From NCBI RefSeq assembly GCF_003860135.1, contig NZ_RQYN01000005.1:62001-126000 (forward strand): a stretch of DNA of 64,000 nt, in the 5' to 3' direction. The notes beneath the pieces were generated by a model. The model ran no database searches and was not told the DNA's origin. It was given only the letters and a program-made list of their open reading frames with translations. Below, piece after piece: positions 50,791 through 64,000 of this stretch (positions are counted from its first letter, which is position 1; each line of letters begins with the position of its first letter). The DNA comes from Tannerella forsythia (GTDB lineage: Bacteria > Bacteroidota > Bacteroidia > Bacteroidales > Tannerellaceae). A program made the position numbers and the translations under genes.

Positions 50791-50942
50791 TTTCTTTTAT
50801 TTTTTAAAGTTAAAACAATGCAAAAGTAAACGATTCTTCCGATTAAAAAAAATGTTTGTCTCTTTTTTTATTCTCTTTTTATTATTTCCTTTGTCGCAAT
50901 AACTTTTTTCTTCTTCCGTTATTCATACAAATTAAAAGTAAA

Positions 50943-51659
50943 TTGAGACGAACTATATTGATTATATTATGGGTATGTTTTTGGGCTGCTTCGTGTCTTT
51001 ATGCTCAACGACAAAGACCGAAGAACCAGCCGTATGCCGATATGAAGCGGTATCATTTCGGGTTTCATGTCGGGATGCATACGCAAGATTTGATTTTAAC
51101 GCATTCGGGGGTGACGACGTCTGACGGCAAAACGTGGTTTGCCGAAATACCGTCTTATTCGCCGGGATTCAGCGTTGGGGTCATCGGCAATTTATATATC
51201 AATCAATATTTGAATCTGCGTTTTACGCCGACCGTTCACTTTGGCGATAAGAAGTTTGCTTTTATTGACGCGCGAGCTTCCGATTCTCAGGCTACGTTTA
51301 CCACTTCGATCCGATCGAATTATCTTGCCTTGCCGTTAGATCTGAAATATACGGCGATGCGACTTAATAACTACCGTCCTTATTTGCTTGGCGGTGTCTT
51401 TACCAGTTTTGACATGGGGCGTAAAAAAGAAACTCCGGTCTTGCTAAAGCCATTGGATTATGGAGTAGAAGTTGGCTTCGGATGTGATATTTATTTGCCT
51501 TATTTCAAGCTTTGTCCCGAGCTGAAGTTTTGTTTCGGACTGGCCGATGTCCTGCAAAAAGACCGTCGTGATTTGATCAGCGAGCCGGATCGGGTGTATA
51601 CTGAGGCGCTATCGAAAGCTACTTCACGTTTGATCGTACTGACATTCAACTTTGAATAA
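50943..51659 (+). CDS. porT: PorT-like outer-membrane protein of the type IX secretion system
   Basis: About 239 residues if translation starts at TTG 50943 (LRRTILIILWVCFWAASCLYAQ, a good signal peptide); an in-frame ATG lies at 50856 but adds 29 unlikely residues. The mature part is a beta barrel: YADMKRYHFGFHVGMHTQDLILTHSG, FSVGVIGNLYINQYLNLRFTPTVHFGDKKF, NYRPYLLGGVFTSFDMGRK. These match PorT, needed for export of T9SS cargo in Porphyromonas and relatives. It ends with LTFNFE. The 3' end overlaps cdsA by 14 bp. Confidence 0.85.
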   Translation: MRRTILIILWVCFWAASCLYAQRQRPKNQPYADMKRYHFGFHVGMHTQDLILTHSGVTTSDGKTWFAEIPSYSPGFSVGVIGNLYINQYLNLRFTPTVHFGDKKFAFIDARASDSQATFTTSIRSNYLALPLDLKYTAMRLNNYRPYLLGGVFTSFDMGRKKETPVLLKPLDYGVEVGFGCDIYLPYFKLCPELKFCFGLADVLQKDRRDLISEPDRVYTEALSKATSRLIVLTFNFE

Positions 51660-56301: not shown

Positions 56302-56675
56302 ATTCTTTTTCTGTAATGCTTTTTTGGGGAGAGTATTTTTACCAGAGTTTTTTAGAACTCTTTTTTTGTTTTGTAGTGCTTGTTTAGTATGGATATAGTT
56401 TGACTTTATGAGTCGTTTGTTTTTGTTGTGGTAGCAGGGTCAAGAAGCGCAACTGATTATTGTCTCTGTTTTTTATTCTGGCTTGCGGATGAAAATATTC
56501 GTGAGTCTGGAAGTTACAGAGCAGAGTCTGTCTTTCGTTTTTTTGTGGTTATTGTTGAAGTTTTCACTATTTTGTTCACGTTTCAGAATAACTTGCGCCT
56601 GAATGACGGTATAATTGATAATTTATCTATCTTTGTCGCATTGAATTTATGGAGTTTAGTAATCAGGCGATAGAA
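56302..56675. other. Intergenic region with a plus-strand -7 element
   Basis: No gene seen. TATCTTTG at 56628-56635 matches TAnnTTTG and would start transcription near 56642. This places the start of the next gene at ATG 56676 rather than at ATG 56649. Confidence 0.5.
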
Positions 56676-57131
56676 ATGAAAAGTTATACATTACTTTTAT
56701 TGCTTTTATTGCCTTGTTTTGCAGGAAAAAGTTATGCACAATCGTTGTATGACAAGCAAGGACGGGTAATAGCAACAAAAATAAACAACGAACAAATCAA
56801 TGTTACCGGATCAACCTTTCTGATTGAAGAGGGGCGAATGATTGAAGTGTTGGACGGAGCGCGTCGCGAAGATTTGGGCATTAATTATATCCGTCAGCCG
56901 GATAGCAACCGGATAGAATACATTAACAAGGAAAGCCAATTAGTGGGTTACTATGTTCCTTCGGAAAATCGATTTTATCGTGTAGAAATCCGAAGCGGTA
57001 AGGTTGATCACGTAGCTTTGCTATACGAAGGGCAGGTGTATACGTTGGATGAGAAGCCTTCTTTTCGTATAGATGCAGGTTTCCCGCCCGAGTGGGTAGG
57101 TTATGTAGTGTTCTTTTTTCTGGGATATTAA
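56676..57131 (+). CDS. Exported hypothetical protein, possible beta-flower fold
   Basis: A 151-residue protein with a signal peptide (MKSYTLLLLLLLPCFAGKSYAQ). The mature part is a series of short beta hairpins (SLYDKQGRVIATKINNEQINV, IEYINKESQLVGYYVPSENRFYRVEIRSGKVDHVALLYEGQVYTL). It resembles four-fold beta-flower proteins of Bacteroidetes, a tentative match. The C-terminus is hydrophobic (WVGYVVFFFLGY). It lies 40 bp upstream of the giant surface-protein gene in the same direction and may share its export or regulation. Confidence 0.65.
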   Translation: MKSYTLLLLLLLPCFAGKSYAQSLYDKQGRVIATKINNEQINVTGSTFLIEEGRMIEVLDGARREDLGINYIRQPDSNRIEYINKESQLVGYYVPSENRFYRVEIRSGKVDHVALLYEGQVYTLDEKPSFRIDAGFPPEWVGYVVFFFLGY

Positions 57132-57171: not shown

Positions 57172-60100
57172 ATGAAAGAAAATAACGTTATTCGACGAAG
57201 GTGGAATACCTTCACTGTTTCCATAGCAGAGTATGCGCATAAAAATATGCTGCGTTTCTGGCTGATGGCGTGTCTTATATTATGCTCTGGTACCGGAATA
57301 TGGGCGCAGAGTGCTCAAGTAATCAATCCATCCGGAGGAACCGGATTAAATGATGGGCTGAAAATTCAGGTAAATACAAATGGAGCGTTAGCAGTTTATC
57401 GAAATAATATGGCTCAGTATTGTTGTTCGAATGTTTGGCCAAATGGTGCTACGGGGGGAGTGCCTCTAACATTCCGTTTCAGTAAGGGGAATTCATATAA
57501 TACATCAACAGCAACTTTGACCGCTTGCTCTACGACCCCTGTACAACAGAATGGCAATACGTATACGACCAGTATTACCGGATGGGTGCGGTCTACTATC
57601 TCATCGGATTTGTTCTATGTGACAATCAATGTGACTTATACGCATCCCAATAACTATTTCTATGTAGATTATTTTGTAAGAGCAGCTTCTAATTTGTCTG
57701 CTTCTGGAGAGAATCAACTTTTACATCTCTATTTATCTCATGATACTTATATTTTGGGAAAAGACGGCTCACGAGGCTATCGTTCAATAAACGGCACCGG
57801 TGAGCTTATAGGAAACTACCGGTCAGAAACAGACAGAGGTAGCTGTGGTGGTGGAGAAAATAATCCGACATATCCTTCCACTCACGGTTTTAAAACAAAA
57901 AACGGATTCCGAAGCTATTATACCGGATCTTATAGTTCTCGTAATAATATAGGTTCAGATATTAAATTGACGAATACAATCAATACGACGTGTGTAGATG
58001 ACGGAGTTGCCGTAGAGTTTACTATTGGGCCTTTTACTTCTGCCGGACAAGTATTTGCCAAGCAGGTGTTGCACGGTTACGGAAACAATCAAGGAGAATT
58101 TGATACTACACCGGTGAATGATCCTTCGGTTTCCGGATTATCTTCTTCAGCGGTAACTGTTGAACTTACCTCCAATGCCTATTCCGAACCGGAAGGAAAC
58201 AGCGATCATACAACCAATACGGTCAAAATCCGTGTCAGTGGGGGGCGGTTAACTCAGGATCAGGTATGCAATTTTACGTTGCATAACGGTACCGCCCAGC
58301 AAGGTCCTCATTATACTTATGTGAAAGGGGTTACTATTCCTGCCGGAGATTATAGTACAGCGAAAGAAATAACCCTGAATAATATCACGATCAAAGGCAA
58401 TACCGAATGTAATACTGACCGTACTTTCCAAATATCGATTGATGATCCCGGACAATGCAATGATTTGATACAAAAAAGTCCCACAAATAATCGGGCAACT
58501 ATTACGATTCAGGATGATGAAGTTCGTCCTACGATTACGACGAACTTGCCGAATCTGGAATATCATTACGGACAGAATGTGCCTGCCGTAACGTTTGCAA
58601 CGAATCCGTCGAACGCAACTGTGAGTTGGACAAACTCGAATACGAGCATCGGTCTGAATTCTTCTTCCGGAAATGGGAATTTGCCTTCGTTTATTGCGAA
58701 AAACGAGAGTACGGCTCCGATCACGGCTACGATTACCGCTACCCCGCAAGGTGCTTGTCCCGGAACGCCCAAGACATTTACAATCAAGGTACATCCCAAG
58801 CTTAAAATTACATACGAATATAATGGAGGAACAGCGCCGACTATATCCAATCCGACGACTTTCTTATATGATCAGTCGGTGACGATTGATAACGAGCCGA
58901 CACGCAAAGGATATACATTTAAGGGATGGACGTGTCAGGAGCTGAATATTACAACCCCGGCAAAACCGTTTGTTATTCCCGCTCGTACGGATAAGAACCT
59001 TACACTTCGTGCCGACTGGGGGCTTGACAACTATACCATTACGTATACGCTCAATGGTGGAGTAGAGCAAGACGGAGGGAACCCAACGTTATATGACGTG
59101 AACACGCCGAGCTTCTCGCTGAAGGCTCCCAGAAAGCCCGGCTTTACTTTTACGGGCTGGACGGGTAGCAACGGGACATCTCCCAATACTTCGGTCTCGA
59201 TCCCTCAAGGATCTACCGGGAATAAAAATTATACTGCTAACTGGACGGAAAATACGTATACGATTTCGTATAATTACAATTCCGGTAATGCTCCGGCTTC
59301 ACCGAATAAAGCCCAATATAAGATTACGGAGGTGCCTTTTGATATTAATTCTACGGCTACCGCGAATCAGCCTACCCGTACCGGCTATGATTTTACCGGT
59401 TGGACTGGGCCTAATGCTACTTCGGCTACAAAAACCGTACATGTAACGAATGCCGTATTCGTGTCTTCTGGAGATCCTCAAAACTTGTCGTATCTGGCTA
59501 ATTGGGTGCCGATCAATTATACGTTGACTTATCATCTGAACGGAGGAACGGCGTCCAATCCGGCGGACTATACCATCGAATCGCCCGAACTGAGCTTGAA
59601 CAGGCCTACCCGTTCGGGATATACGTTTACCGGCTGGACCGGAACGGGGCTAAGCGGTCAAGTGATGGATGTGAAGATTCCGCGAGGCTCGACCGGAAAT
59701 CGCGAATATACGGCTAATTGGACGCCGATTAATTATACCATTACGTATAAGGATGGTTCGGCTAATATTACCGTTCCGGGAGCGCCGACGCAATTCAATG
59801 ATCCGCAGTTGCCGCTTACCATTAACAATGAACCGACCAAACCGGGTTGGACGTTTACCGGCTGGACGGGCGGTGCCGGAGCTGATGGTGGAAAAGTGAT
59901 TACTATCCCCGACAACACGCATGCAAATCAGATATATACGGCCACGTGGAATCCGATAACCTATACGATTACATTCAATCCGAATGATGGGGTGAATCCC
60001 GCTATTCAGCCGGAATGGACAAGTTACGATATGTCCAAGTTGCCGCTGAGTGGCGTCAGTGTGACACCTACACGTACAGGATATACCTTTAACGGATGGA

Positions 60101-63100
60101 CAGGCCACGGTCTGACGAATCATAAGGCTCCGTTCTCGATTGCCTCTACGACAAACGGGGTGCCCGGTAATTTAACTTATACGGCACAATGGATTCTGGA
60201 TACGTATAACTTGAGTTATGATTTAGGAGGAGGAGCAGTTGCGACCGCGAATCCTACGACGTATACCTATACGACGCAAACGATTACGCTCACAAATCCT
60301 ACACGTAAGGGCTATACGTTTGCCGGCTGGACCGGAACGGATATTACGGGAACGAGCATGTCGGTACAGATTCCGCAGGGATCTGTCGGGCATCGTTCGT
60401 ATACGGCAACGTGGACGGCCGACAGATATACGATTTCCTACAATCTGGCCGAAGGGATGGTGACTACGGCGAACCCGGATGAATATTATGTCACAACCCC
60501 TACGATTACGCTTAATAATCCGAGTCGTTCGGGCTATACGTTTGCTGGCTGGACGGGAACGGGTATTACCGGTTCGTCTACGTCGGTGCAGATTCCGTTA
60601 GGCTCTACCGGAGACCGGACCTATACGGCCACATGGACTCCAATTACGTATACAATTAAATATGTAGATGATAACGGAACGACAGAGTTGCCTGCCGGAG
60701 CACTATCGGCCGGAGCTCCCACACAGTTTGACGACACAGAGTTGCCGAAGGCTTTTACCGTAACAGCGACTAAAGCGGGTTGGACATTCGAAGGATGGGA
60801 GCAAGGAGCCGGAGCCGGGGGGACACCTGATGTGACGATTCCGAAAGCAGCCGCTTCTCACGCCCATCAGACGTACAAAGCGAAATGGACGGTGATAAAT
60901 TACGATATTACGTATTCACTCGACGGTGGAACTGTCGGGGCGTCTGCTAACCCTTCGACTTATCAGGTGACTTCTGCTCCAATCACGTTGACTCCTCCTA
61001 CCAAGTCGGGTTACACGTTTGCCGGCTGGACCGGTACGGACCTTGGTGGCCCGACTTTGAATGTGACAATTCCGACCGGCTCTACGGGGGCGCGTTCGTA
61101 TACTGCTACGTGGACTCCTGTTACTTATACGATAAAGTATGTTGACGATAACGGCACGACGCCACTTACGACGGTATCCGCCGGCGCACCCACGCAGTTT
61201 GACGATACGCAGCTTCCGAAAACATTTCATGTAACGGCTACTAAGCCCGGTTGGACATTTGTCGGTTGGACGGGGGGTGCCGGAGCAAGCGGAAGCCAGG
61301 CTATTACAATCGCAAAAGAGTCGGCTTCGCATGCTGATCAGACTTATCGGGCGATCTGGACGGCCGATGATTATACGATTACATTCAATGCGAACGGAGG
61401 AACGAATCCTACGATTCCCATTAATCTGGCCGGTTACAAGATGACGACTTTGCCGCTTACTGCGAACGTGATACCTACTCGTACGGGTTATACGTTTGCC
61501 GGTTGGACAGGTCACGGACAGACGAATCAGACGGCTCCGTTTACGATTGCCTCGACGACAGCCGGTGTTCCCGGTGATCTGGTTTATACTGCCGGTTGGA
61601 ATATCATTACCTATAATATCAGTTACGACCTCGACGGAGGAACGGTGGCGGGTAATCCTGCAACGTATCAGGTTACCGACAATGATATTACCCTGACGAA
61701 TCCCACGAAGCCGGGTTGGACATTTGTCGGCTGGACGGGCACAGAGTTGGCGTCTGCCAGCCAGTCTGTAACGATCCCGCAAGGTTCGACCGGAAACAGA
61801 AGTTATAAGGCTACGTGGTCGGCTAATGCCTATACGATTACCTTCGATCCGAATCAGGGCGTGAATCCGACGAATATACCGACGCAATGGTTAGGGTATA
61901 ATATGACGGATTTGCCTTTGAATAATATCAGCGTGACTCCTACCCGTCTGGGATATGATTTTACCGGTTGGACAGGTCCGGGACAGACGAATCAGACAGC
62001 GCCTTTCAGCATTACGGATGCTACTCCCACCGTGCCGGGCAATCTGGTTTACGTGGCCGGCTGGAATATCATTACCTATAATATAACGTATACACTGGAT
62101 GGAGGAACAGTTACTCCGACGAATCCTGCGTCTTATCAGGTAACGACTCCGGCCATTACGCTGAACAACCCGACCCGCACGGGATATACGTTTGCCGGTT
62201 GGACAGGAACAGACTTGACTGCTCCGTCTACATCGGTGACGATTCCTACCGGTTCTATCGGACAGCGGGATTATACGGCTACATGGTCGGAAAACGGATA
62301 TACCATTACGTATAACCTGAATAACGGAACGGCATCGGCTACACCGAACAAGGCAACGTTTAAGATTACGGATGTACCGTTTACCGTTAACACGACCGCT
62401 TCAGCCAACCAGCCGACGCGTACGGGGTATGACTTTACGGGTTGGACAGGACACGACTTAACCGTCGCGAACAAGACCATCAATGTGCAGGCCAGTACGT
62501 TCTCTACACCGGGAACACCCGAGAACCTGACGTATACGGCCAATTGGAATCCGATTACGTATGCGATCCATTATACGTTGGAGAATGGAACGGCAGGGGC
62601 CGGTCATGTTACGTCCTACACGATTGAGTCTCCTACATTTAATTTGGTGCCTCCGACACGGAGCGGTTGGACGTTCGTGGGGTGGACCGGTAGTAACGGT
62701 TCCGTACCGCAAACCACCGTTACGGTTCCTCAGGGCACGACCGGCGAATTGAACTATACCGCCAATTGGAGTGCCAATGCTTACACGATTACGTTCGATC
62801 CGAATAATGGCGTGAATCCGACTATTCCGTCTAATTTAGCCGGATATAATGTTACGGATTTGCCTCTTGACGTAGACTTGACCCCGACCCGCTTAGGATA
62901 TACCTTCAAGGGCTGGACCGGGCACGGACTGCCGGGTACGACGGATCCGTTCCGGATCGACAACACGATGCCTGGGGTGCCGGGTAACCTGACTTTTACG
63001 GCTACGTGGGAGTTAGACAATTATACCTTGCATTATCATTTGGGCGGAGGTGTTCATGTGCCGGGAAATCCATCTAGTTATAACGTGACCCAGTTGCCGG

Positions 63101-64000
63101 TCGATGTGGTAACCGAACCGACCCATCTCGACCCGAATACCGTCTTTATCGGATGGACGTGCCGCGAAATGCCGACGGTTCCGATGACGCTGGCATTTAC
63201 GATTCCCGATCAAACGACCGGCGAACTGAACTTCGATGCACATTGGACCAAGAGCCTGCACAGTCTGAACAACAACCATCCGGGCAATATCAACGATACG
63301 CTGTTTGTTTGTGAGGGGCCCCGTAAATTGTATGGCGACCCGCAAGGAAAATCTTGGCAATGGATATTACCCGACGGTCAAATACTGACAACCATGAACA
63401 TCGATGCGAAGAAATCCGGACGTTATGTGTGCAGCACAAACTATGGAACGAAGATCATCAATGACACATTGCATGTTTACTTCCTGATGGAAAACAATCG
63501 TTCTTCGATCCGTTATATTACGACGACAGGGGCTAAATTGAACCGCGCACAGGAATTTGTGCTCGATATTCCGCGCGAGATGTGGCCGCATGTTACTTCG
63601 AACTGGAGTGTTTCCGGAGGAGGAGTGATCCGAAAATCTTCGGCCGATTCGCTGATGGTTACTTGGGGCACGATGGGTGACAAGTCGGTTACCGTCGATG
63701 TGACCTTTACGTATGCCGGTATCCGATGCAGCAAGCGATTATCGACGAATATCCAGATCGGTCAGCGTTCGCTTGGGTTCTTTGTCGATCACCGGGCGAC
63801 GGGAGGACGGAAAGACGGCTCCTCTTGGCAAGATGCTTTCCTGACCATTACTGACGCGCTTGCACGTGCGACGGTGGGCGACCGTATCTGGGTGGCCAAA
63901 GGAACGTATCAGCCGGTGTCCGGACGATCTTTCGATATCCTGCAAGACAGTATCGAGATTTATGGCGGTTTCGAAGGGACGGAAGAATATCTGTATCAAC
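57172..64000 (+). CDS. Giant exported repeat protein (Calx-beta, Ig-like, InlB B-repeats, beta-helix), 3' end outside window
   Basis: An uninterrupted frame of at least 2,276 codons that runs off the window. The N-terminus MKENNVIRRRWNTFTVSIAE is followed by a hydrophobic export signal (MLRFWLMACLILCSGTGIWAQ), an extended signal peptide. Residues about 30-310 are beta-rich and unassigned. A Calx-beta-like domain follows (about 325-450, EPEGNSDHTTNTVKIRVSGG ... TIQDDE), then an Ig-like domain (about 453-543). Nineteen InlB-type B-repeats cover about 544-2025. Two Ig/PKD-like domains come next, and from ~2204 a parallel beta-helix start (DGSSWQDAFLTITDALARA..GDRIWVAKGTYQP). It is probably a surface adhesin exported by Sec and possibly anchored through type IX secretion; the C-terminal sorting domain would lie beyond the window. 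Confidence 0.9.
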   Translation, partial: MKENNVIRRRWNTFTVSIAEYAHKNMLRFWLMACLILCSGTGIWAQSAQVINPSGGTGLNDGLKIQVNTNGALAVYRNNMAQYCCSNVWPNGATGGVPLTFRFSKGNSYNTSTATLTACSTTPVQQNGNTYTTSITGWVRSTISSDLFYVTINVTYTHPNNYFYVDYFVRAASNLSASGENQLLHLYLSHDTYILGKDGSRGYRSINGTGELIGNYRSETDRGSCGGGENNPTYPSTHGFKTKNGFRSYYTGSYSSRNNIGSDIKLTNTINTTCVDDGVAVEFTIGPFTSAGQVFAKQVLHGYGNNQGEFDTTPVNDPSVSGLSSSAVTVELTSNAYSEPEGNSDHTTNTVKIRVSGGRLTQDQVCNFTLHNGTAQQGPHYTYVKGVTIPAGDYSTAKEITLNNITIKGNTECNTDRTFQISIDDPGQCNDLIQKSPTNNRATITIQDDEVRPTITTNLPNLEYHYGQNVPAVTFATNPSNATVSWTNSNTSIGLNSSSGNGNLPSFIAKNESTAPITATITATPQGACPGTPKTFTIKVHPKLKITYEYNGGTAPTISNPTTFLYDQSVTIDNEPTRKGYTFKGWTCQELNITTPAKPFVIPARTDKNLTLRADWGLDNYTITYTLNGGVEQDGGNPTLYDVNTPSFSLKAPRKPGFTFTGWTGSNGTSPNTSVSIPQGSTGNKNYTANWTENTYTISYNYNSGNAPASPNKAQYKITEVPFDINSTATANQPTRTGYDFTGWTGPNATSATKTVHVTNAVFVSSGDPQNLSYLANWVPINYTLTYHLNGGTASNPADYTIESPELSLNRPTRSGYTFTGWTGTGLSGQVMDVKIPRGSTGNREYTANWTPINYTITYKDGSANITVPGAPTQFNDPQLPLTINNEPTKPGWTFTGWTGGAGADGGKVITIPDNTHANQIYTATWNPITYTITFNPNDGVNPAIQPEWTSYDMSKLPLSGVSVTPTRTGYTFNGWTGHGLTNHKAPFSIASTTNGVPGNLTYTAQWILDTYNLSYDLGGGAVATANPTTYTYTTQTITLTNPTRKGYTFAGWTGTDITGTSMSVQIPQGSVGHRSYTATWTADRYTISYNLAEGMVTTANPDEYYVTTPTITLNNPSRSGYTFAGWTGTGITGSSTSVQIPLGSTGDRTYTATWTPITYTIKYVDDNGTTELPAGALSAGAPTQFDDTELPKAFTVTATKAGWTFEGWEQGAGAGGTPDVTIPKAAASHAHQTYKAKWTVINYDITYSLDGGTVGASANPSTYQVTSAPITLTPPTKSGYTFAGWTGTDLGGPTLNVTIPTGSTGARSYTATWTPVTYTIKYVDDNGTTPLTTVSAGAPTQFDDTQLPKTFHVTATKPGWTFVGWTGGAGASGSQAITIAKESASHADQTYRAIWTADDYTITFNANGGTNPTIPINLAGYKMTTLPLTANVIPTRTGYTFAGWTGHGQTNQTAPFTIASTTAGVPGDLVYTAGWNIITYNISYDLDGGTVAGNPATYQVTDNDITLTNPTKPGWTFVGWTGTELASASQSVTIPQGSTGNRSYKATWSANAYTITFDPNQGVNPTNIPTQWLGYNMTDLPLNNISVTPTRLGYDFTGWTGPGQTNQTAPFSITDATPTVPGNLVYVAGWNIITYNITYTLDGGTVTPTNPASYQVTTPAITLNNPTRTGYTFAGWTGTDLTAPSTSVTIPTGSIGQRDYTATWSENGYTITYNLNNGTASATPNKATFKITDVPFTVNTTASANQPTRTGYDFTGWTGHDLTVANKTINVQASTFSTPGTPENLTYTANWNPITYAIHYTLENGTAGAGHVTSYTIESPTFNLVPPTRSGWTFVGWTGSNGSVPQTTVTVPQGTTGELNYTANWSANAYTITFDPNNGVNPTIPSNLAGYNVTDLPLDVDLTPTRLGYTFKGWTGHGLPGTTDPFRIDNTMPGVPGNLTFTATWELDNYTLHYHLGGGVHVPGNPSSYNVTQLPVDVVTEPTHLDPNTVFIGWTCREMPTVPMTLAFTIPDQTTGELNFDAHWTKSLHSLNNNHPGNINDTLFVCEGPRKLYGDPQGKSWQWILPDGQILTTMNIDAKKSGRYVCSTNYGTKIINDTLHVYFLMENNRSSIRYITTTGAKLNRAQEFVLDIPREMWPHVTSNWSVSGGGVIRKSSADSLMVTWGTMGDKSVTVDVTFTYAGIRCSKRLSTNIQIGQRSLGFFVDHRATGGRKDGSSWQDAFLTITDALARATVGDRIWVAKGTYQPVSGRSFDILQDSIEIYGGFEGTEEYLYQ
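58801..63249 (+). repeat. Nineteen InlB-type B-repeats (Listeria/Bacteroides repeat)
   Basis: Units of about 69-85 residues, each of the form Y-x-I-x-Y...GG/NG...P-T-R-x-G-Y-T-F-x-G-W-T-G...Y-x-A-x-W. Four subtypes can be told apart by their loops: A (IPQGSTG-x-R), B (YVDDNGTT..PTQFDD), C (F-x-PN-x-GVNP..GVPGNL) and D (NPNKA..PFTVNTTA). The unit order from the second repeat is A D A B C A A B A B C A C A D A C A. The DNA copies are similar enough to recombine. Confidence 0.88.

Follow-up and report, generated by a model that had tools for sequence, protein, structure and literature searches.

Fibrillar adhesins are long surface proteins in which a tandem stalk carries a non-repeat N-terminal domain and the C-terminal end provides surface attachment (PMC8286594). 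In Periscope Proteins (SasG, Rib, Sgo_0707), a series of similar folded domains carries an N-terminal domain; the number of domains in the series differs between relatives, and they are encoded by long, highly identical DNA repeats (PMC8201768). The B repeat of Listeria InlB, present in a single copy beside a leucine-rich domain, is a beta-grasp-like domain (PMC8900821). Tannerella forsythia exports BspA, TfsA, TfsB and the KLIKK proteases by type IX secretion (T9SS). Proteomics of a T9SS signal-peptidase mutant showed that other tail-bearing surface proteins are lost from the outer membrane (PMC8869499), which indicates that the route works in this species.

We analysed a stretch of 64,000 nucleotides of a Tannerella genome (hereafter the window), handled here as a relative of T. 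forsythia; all comparisons are between species, with one genome each. Close to its end starts a gene which a sequence-only reading had described as coding for a giant adhesin-like protein with ordered InlB-type repeats. We conclude that its product is probably a T9SS-exported fibrillar adhesin, in which a head confined to Tannerella would sit on a stalk of presumed beta-grasp domains.

The giant gene and the parts of its product

The reading frame starting at 57,172 had been noted as open at the window end (ORF 57172..63999). In the assembly it is complete, with the stop 1,328 bases beyond the window and no internal stops, and yields a predicted protein of 2,718 residues (~293 kDa). Among named genomes, the locus is found in Tannerella sp. 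S17M_Sa_42 (L031, 2,722 residues, ~90% identical) and T. forsythia ATCC 43037 (L032, 2,402 residues). G numbers denote genomes of the genus, of which G025 and G026 agree with L031 and L032, respectively, in their protein. The gene is under purifying selection (dN/dS ~0.1 against each of these two species), and the frames of its orthologues are open throughout, which together make a sequencing artefact unlikely. For G030, a single-contig member of the genus, the matches listed cover only the C-terminal part of the protein; the giant gene is thus probably not universal in Tannerella. The parts of the protein are a signal peptide, a head, a Calx-beta and an Ig-like domain, 19 repeats, an Ig-like region, a beta-helix-like region, a further domain and a T9SS tail, in this order:

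57172..64000 in the window, then to C161:127328 (window equivalent 65,328), plus strand: giant surface protein gene, 2,718 codons in total (ORF list, assembly extension)
57172..57306, plus strand: signal peptide with a long N-region, residues 1-45 (by eye)
57307..58131, plus strand: N-terminal head domain, residues 46-320 (275 residues), without known family
58204..58518, plus strand: Calx-beta domain, residues 345-449 (PF03160, E 1.9e-6)
58534..58797, plus strand: Ig-like domain, residues 455-542 (aBig_2 in four of eight members)
58798..63246, plus strand: 19 InlB-type repeats (PF09479; found by motif, array profile, Pfam and TIGR02543)
63247..63756, plus strand: post-stalk Ig-like region, residues 2026-2195 (domain type by inspection)
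63757..64000, plus strand: beta-helix-like region, residues 2196-2555, of which only the start lies in the window
C161:127105-127325, beyond the window, plus strand: T9SS tail, residues ~2645-2718 (in-genome tail profile)

The signal peptide was assigned from a hydrophobic stretch and an AxA-type site, both kept in the orthologues. Its N-region is unusually long, with ~25 residues before the hydrophobic part; G025, T. forsythia and G022 share this shape, G003 does not. The head had no match in Pfam or in a profile search of the PDB, and neither search found a known adhesive domain in it. By sequence it is confined to Tannerella within the genomes covered, with no match in 294 others of the Bacteroidales, and a phylum-wide search with the head profile gave matches only in the adjoining Ig-like part. 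The Calx-beta domain is present in all eight aligned members, and the Ig-like domain is of a kind widespread in Bacteroidota. AlphaFold models of the N-terminal part with two repeats (pLDDT 37, alignment of three sequences) and of the C-terminal part (pLDDT 35, two sequences) were too poor to use; in the former, a low-confidence model, the head is all-beta.

The post-stalk Ig-like region is common to other long surface proteins of the genome (paralogues C113, C58, C172). The beta-helix-like region was recognized from a match to choice_anch_Q below the cut-off (E 0.005), and a PDB search with the C-terminal part gave nothing better than E 0.03. The C-terminal 680 residues (L009:6265-8325, beyond the window) have counterparts of ~40% identity in no fewer than three further long proteins (C113, C58, C172) of this genome, where they follow differing N-terminal parts in the manner of a reused anchor module. 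O-glycosylation of the T. forsythia type occurs at the motif D[ST][AILMTV]. This motif is absent from the repeat array (58798-63246) in all five species, and four sites after the stalk lie in matching places in each of the five.

A T9SS C-terminal domain, which the sequence-only reading had suggested looking for beyond position 64,000, is indeed found there. A profile of 13 other tails of this genome, some of them weak TIGR04183 matches themselves, detects it with an E-value of 7.6e-16; among 569 decoys (500 shuffles and the ends of 69 window ORFs), the lowest E-value was 0.16. The general tail model TIGR04183 stays below its curated cut-off (E 0.02 in one search, E 0.065 at C161:127176-127298 in another). 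The secretion machinery is present in the genome (SprA 2880 bits, PorU 1108 bits, GldM 469 bits, PorT 253 bits). The giant protein is most likely a T9SS cargo, predicted to be anchored at the surface. Among the tail-bearing proteins listed as detected in T. forsythia outer membranes (PMC8869499), none has ~2,400 residues. The window itself carries a PorT/SprT gene (NF052311, E 1.7e-75) at 50856-51659, ~5.5 kb upstream of the giant gene.

Immediately upstream of the giant gene lies a small gene, preceded by a promoter-like motif:

56628..56635, plus strand: TATCTTTG, a TAnnTTTG match ~40 bases before the ATG at 56,676, without a clear -33 element
56676..57131, plus strand: gene for a small secreted protein of 151 residues (ORF; signal peptide by eye)

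The small protein had no match in Pfam or NCBIfam. The gene for it is present as a single copy in 7 of the 46 relatives searched; here, 40 bases separate its end from the giant gene. The two are immediate neighbours, with the small gene upstream, in this genome, G025, T. forsythia and G003, and in G022 one other gene lies between them; the remaining neighbours differ. The two genes are predicted to share an operon, which we consider likely. TAnnTTTG is the -7 promoter motif of Bacteroidota; TATCTTTG is suggestive of a putative promoter of the small gene, and the 40 bases between the two genes showed no such motif. In G022, the intervening gene (L035:3776-5524) codes for a secreted protein of 582 residues with a degenerate metalloprotease-like motif and leucine-rich-like repeats. 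In G024, the contig stops just inside the gene for a secreted protein that follows the small gene, and in G009 the small gene has no giant neighbour.

The repeat array in five Tannerella species

The nineteen InlB-type repeats were recovered both by motif and by the array's own profile. PF09479 matches 18 stretches with 338 bits against a curated cut-off of 27 (E 2.9e-103), and TIGR02543 matches 19 stretches (E 3.5e-219). The repeat profile also reaches the InlB B repeat in PDB 2y5p (E 5.6e-4); the model of R01-R02 was too poor to judge the beta-grasp-like fold. From R01 to R19, the order is E A D A B C A A B A B C A C A D A C E'. Average clustering recovers the four loop subtypes proposed earlier (A with eight copies, B with three, C with four and D with two), to which R01 and R19 have to be added as two further, distinct end types. 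The subtypes differ mainly in loops, with a mean identity of 55% within and 35% between them. Three segments of the array matter for what follows:

59722..60414, plus strand: first B-C-A block, R05-R07 (repeat alignment, clustering)
60637..62064, plus strand: variable central segment R09-R14, six repeats here and two (B, C) in T. forsythia (cross-species repeat comparison)
61114..61818, plus strand: second B-C-A block, R11-R13, inside R09-R14 (repeat alignment, clustering)

The two occurrences of B-C-A, and of D-A near both ends (R03-R04 and R16-R17), are as the sequence-only reading had described them. When the end repeats were kept fixed and the inner 17 permuted, the probability of two B-C-A was 0.035, of two D-A 0.21 and of both 0.006, values that are flattered because the pattern was picked by eye after the order had been seen. 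The subtype order is mildly, not overwhelmingly, non-random.

Growth by block duplication, which had been read from this order, is not cleanly borne out by the B-C-A pair of this genome: the blocks are not mutual best matches, the best partners by clustering being R07-R08, R11-R09, R12-R14 and R13-R15, and the pair is no clean duplicate. Tandem Repeats Finder found no array here, because the copies are too diverged. Across species, the idea is supported. With the array profile, we counted 19 repeats in this genome, G025 and G003, and 15 in T. forsythia (G026) and G022. T. forsythia and G022 both have two B-C-A blocks, and in G022 each repeat of one block has its best match in the corresponding repeat of the other, and vice versa (58, 75 and 76% protein identity), so that block duplication is well supported in that species. 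In G003, one subtype makes up most of the centre, with DNA identities of up to 90% between copies. R01 and R19, at the two ends, hold their places in all five species; the arrays thus vary in the centre and are constant at the ends.

The T. forsythia counterparts of R01-R08 and R15-R19 have 77-94% identity. In DNA, the best T. forsythia matches of R09-R14 are 63-74% identical, those of the other repeats 83-89%, except for R19 (74%). A recent insertion of four repeats as the cause of 19 versus 15 was rejected, R10 and R12-R14 having no T. forsythia counterpart above ~68% DNA identity. In G025, the repeats pair one-to-one with those of this genome in the same order (86-96% protein identity, ~90% over the whole protein). 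The sequence-only reading had named identical number and order in distant strains as evidence against itself, and G025 comes close to this, as a sister species represented by one genome.

The N-terminal parts of the protein have different affinities. At three-way informative sites, the head groups this genome with G025 at 163 and with T. forsythia at 44, whereas the Calx-beta and Ig-like part does so at 44 and 95, respectively. Fisher's test of this contrast (P 1e-18) overstates the case because the sites are not independent; synonymous divergence agrees with it. The simplest reading would be an exchange between species near residue 320.

The role of the stalk and the history of the array

The architecture of signal peptide, N-terminal domain, Calx-beta domain, 19 repeats and T9SS tail bears out the description as a giant adhesin-like protein; adhesion itself, like the stalk role, the binding by the head and a partner role of the small protein, is something we infer. 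The protein would enter the periplasm by the Sec route, its C-terminal domain would steer it through the SprA channel, and PorU would cut off the tail and fix the protein on the outer surface. The 19 InlB-type domains, presumably of beta-grasp fold, would then form a stalk, which at a few nanometres per domain may be tens of nanometres long and would keep the head away from the cell, plausibly past an S-layer like that of T. forsythia, which is ~22 nm thick (PMC3354324). The head would bind host or bacterial partners. The stalk may have changed through occasional gain, loss or replacement of multi-repeat blocks in its centre, with both ends fixed; in this lineage, the copies would since have diverged and the array have become stable.

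A more far-reaching version is tentative, and we think it rather less probable than not: the head would found a new adhesive domain family with the small secreted protein as its dedicated partner, and the gene would be a mosaic whose head and central stalk segments were swapped between Tannerella species by recombination, and not by slippage inside the array.

The array may exceed a spacer role, since InlB-type repeats can bind partners themselves. The repeats could even be the active part, many domains binding ligands with avidity and the subtype order reflecting different partners instead of spacing. In Listeria, the one B repeat of InlB contributes to MET signalling, and a ligand groove has been proposed for it (PMC8900821); that the subtypes differ mainly in loops and correspond one-to-one between the sister species would also fit. 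Against this, species differ freely in how many repeats the centre has and of which subtypes, and the centre of G003 is mostly of one subtype, as expected for a spacer. We therefore regard binding by the repeats as the main function as unlikely.

Less likely still, the subtype order would result from selection for unlike neighbouring domains, which would counter misfolding, and not from block duplication. Multidomain proteins usually show low identity between adjacent domains (PMC8201768). In this genome and in G025, neighbouring repeats have a mean identity of 37% compared to 40% in shuffles (P = 0.04), and repeats two apart are more alike (P = 0.015). However, the effect is not significant in T. 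forsythia or G022 and is reversed in G003, the neighbours R07 and R08 are 66% identical, and duplication of two-repeat units (such as A-B or C-A) would give equal alternation.

The repeat copies had also been proposed as material for length variation by recombination. This fails in this genome. The repeats are 38-68% identical in DNA, and different repeats share exact stretches of 23 bp at most, both here and in G025, which is no longer than in synonymous-codon shuffles of the array (mean longest match 19, range up to 29). The supported case for recombination-prone copies is G003, where sequence comparison gives 29 exact matches of at least 25 bp between repeats, the longest of 95 bp. Its centre of ~11 similar, recently amplified repeats (L036) is the best candidate for real length variation. 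A Periscope-type protein, changing its repeat number fast through recombination between copies, agrees with the different numbers between species and with the matches in G003, but is very improbable here given repeat DNA of at most 68% identity, no exact match of 25 bp or more and the same 19 repeats one-to-one in G025. An ordered array need not mean ongoing length variation: the order is the same in the sister species, and the copies have drifted too far apart in DNA.

Comparison with known systems

In the literature on InlB-type repeats in Tannerella or in connection with T9SS, we found no mention of the giant protein. Two details appear to be new here, the conserved small secreted gene upstream and the indications that species have exchanged segments of the gene. 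The protein, which has a long stalk and a T9SS tail and is represented by an orthologue in the periodontal T. forsythia, joins the candidate adhesins, and the head without known family, the conserved small gene for a putative partner and the differences in stalk length between species offer leads.

The protein resembles fibrillar adhesins (PMC8286594) in its length, in its non-repeat N-terminal domain, in its predicted C-terminal surface attachment and in its tandem stalk domains, here 19 repeats. It differs from them in that it has no recognised adhesive domain, a T9SS tail instead of a sortase motif, and a stalk of the InlB type. With Periscope Proteins (PMC8201768), it shares the arrangement of an N-terminal domain followed by a row of like domains, and a repeat number that differs between relatives (15 to 19 between species, one genome per species). 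Yet its repeat DNA is strongly diverged and the array of the sister species has identical number and order, long and near-identical copies being found only in the G003 orthologue. By profile, the repeats form one family with the Listeria InlB B repeat (PF09479; PDB 2y5p), whereas 19 of them occur here, without a leucine-rich domain and in a protein of Gram-negative export. With the T9SS cargo of T. forsythia, the giant protein has the secretion route and the tail family in common; the passenger is different, and the tail ends in KVMVE, not in KLIKK.
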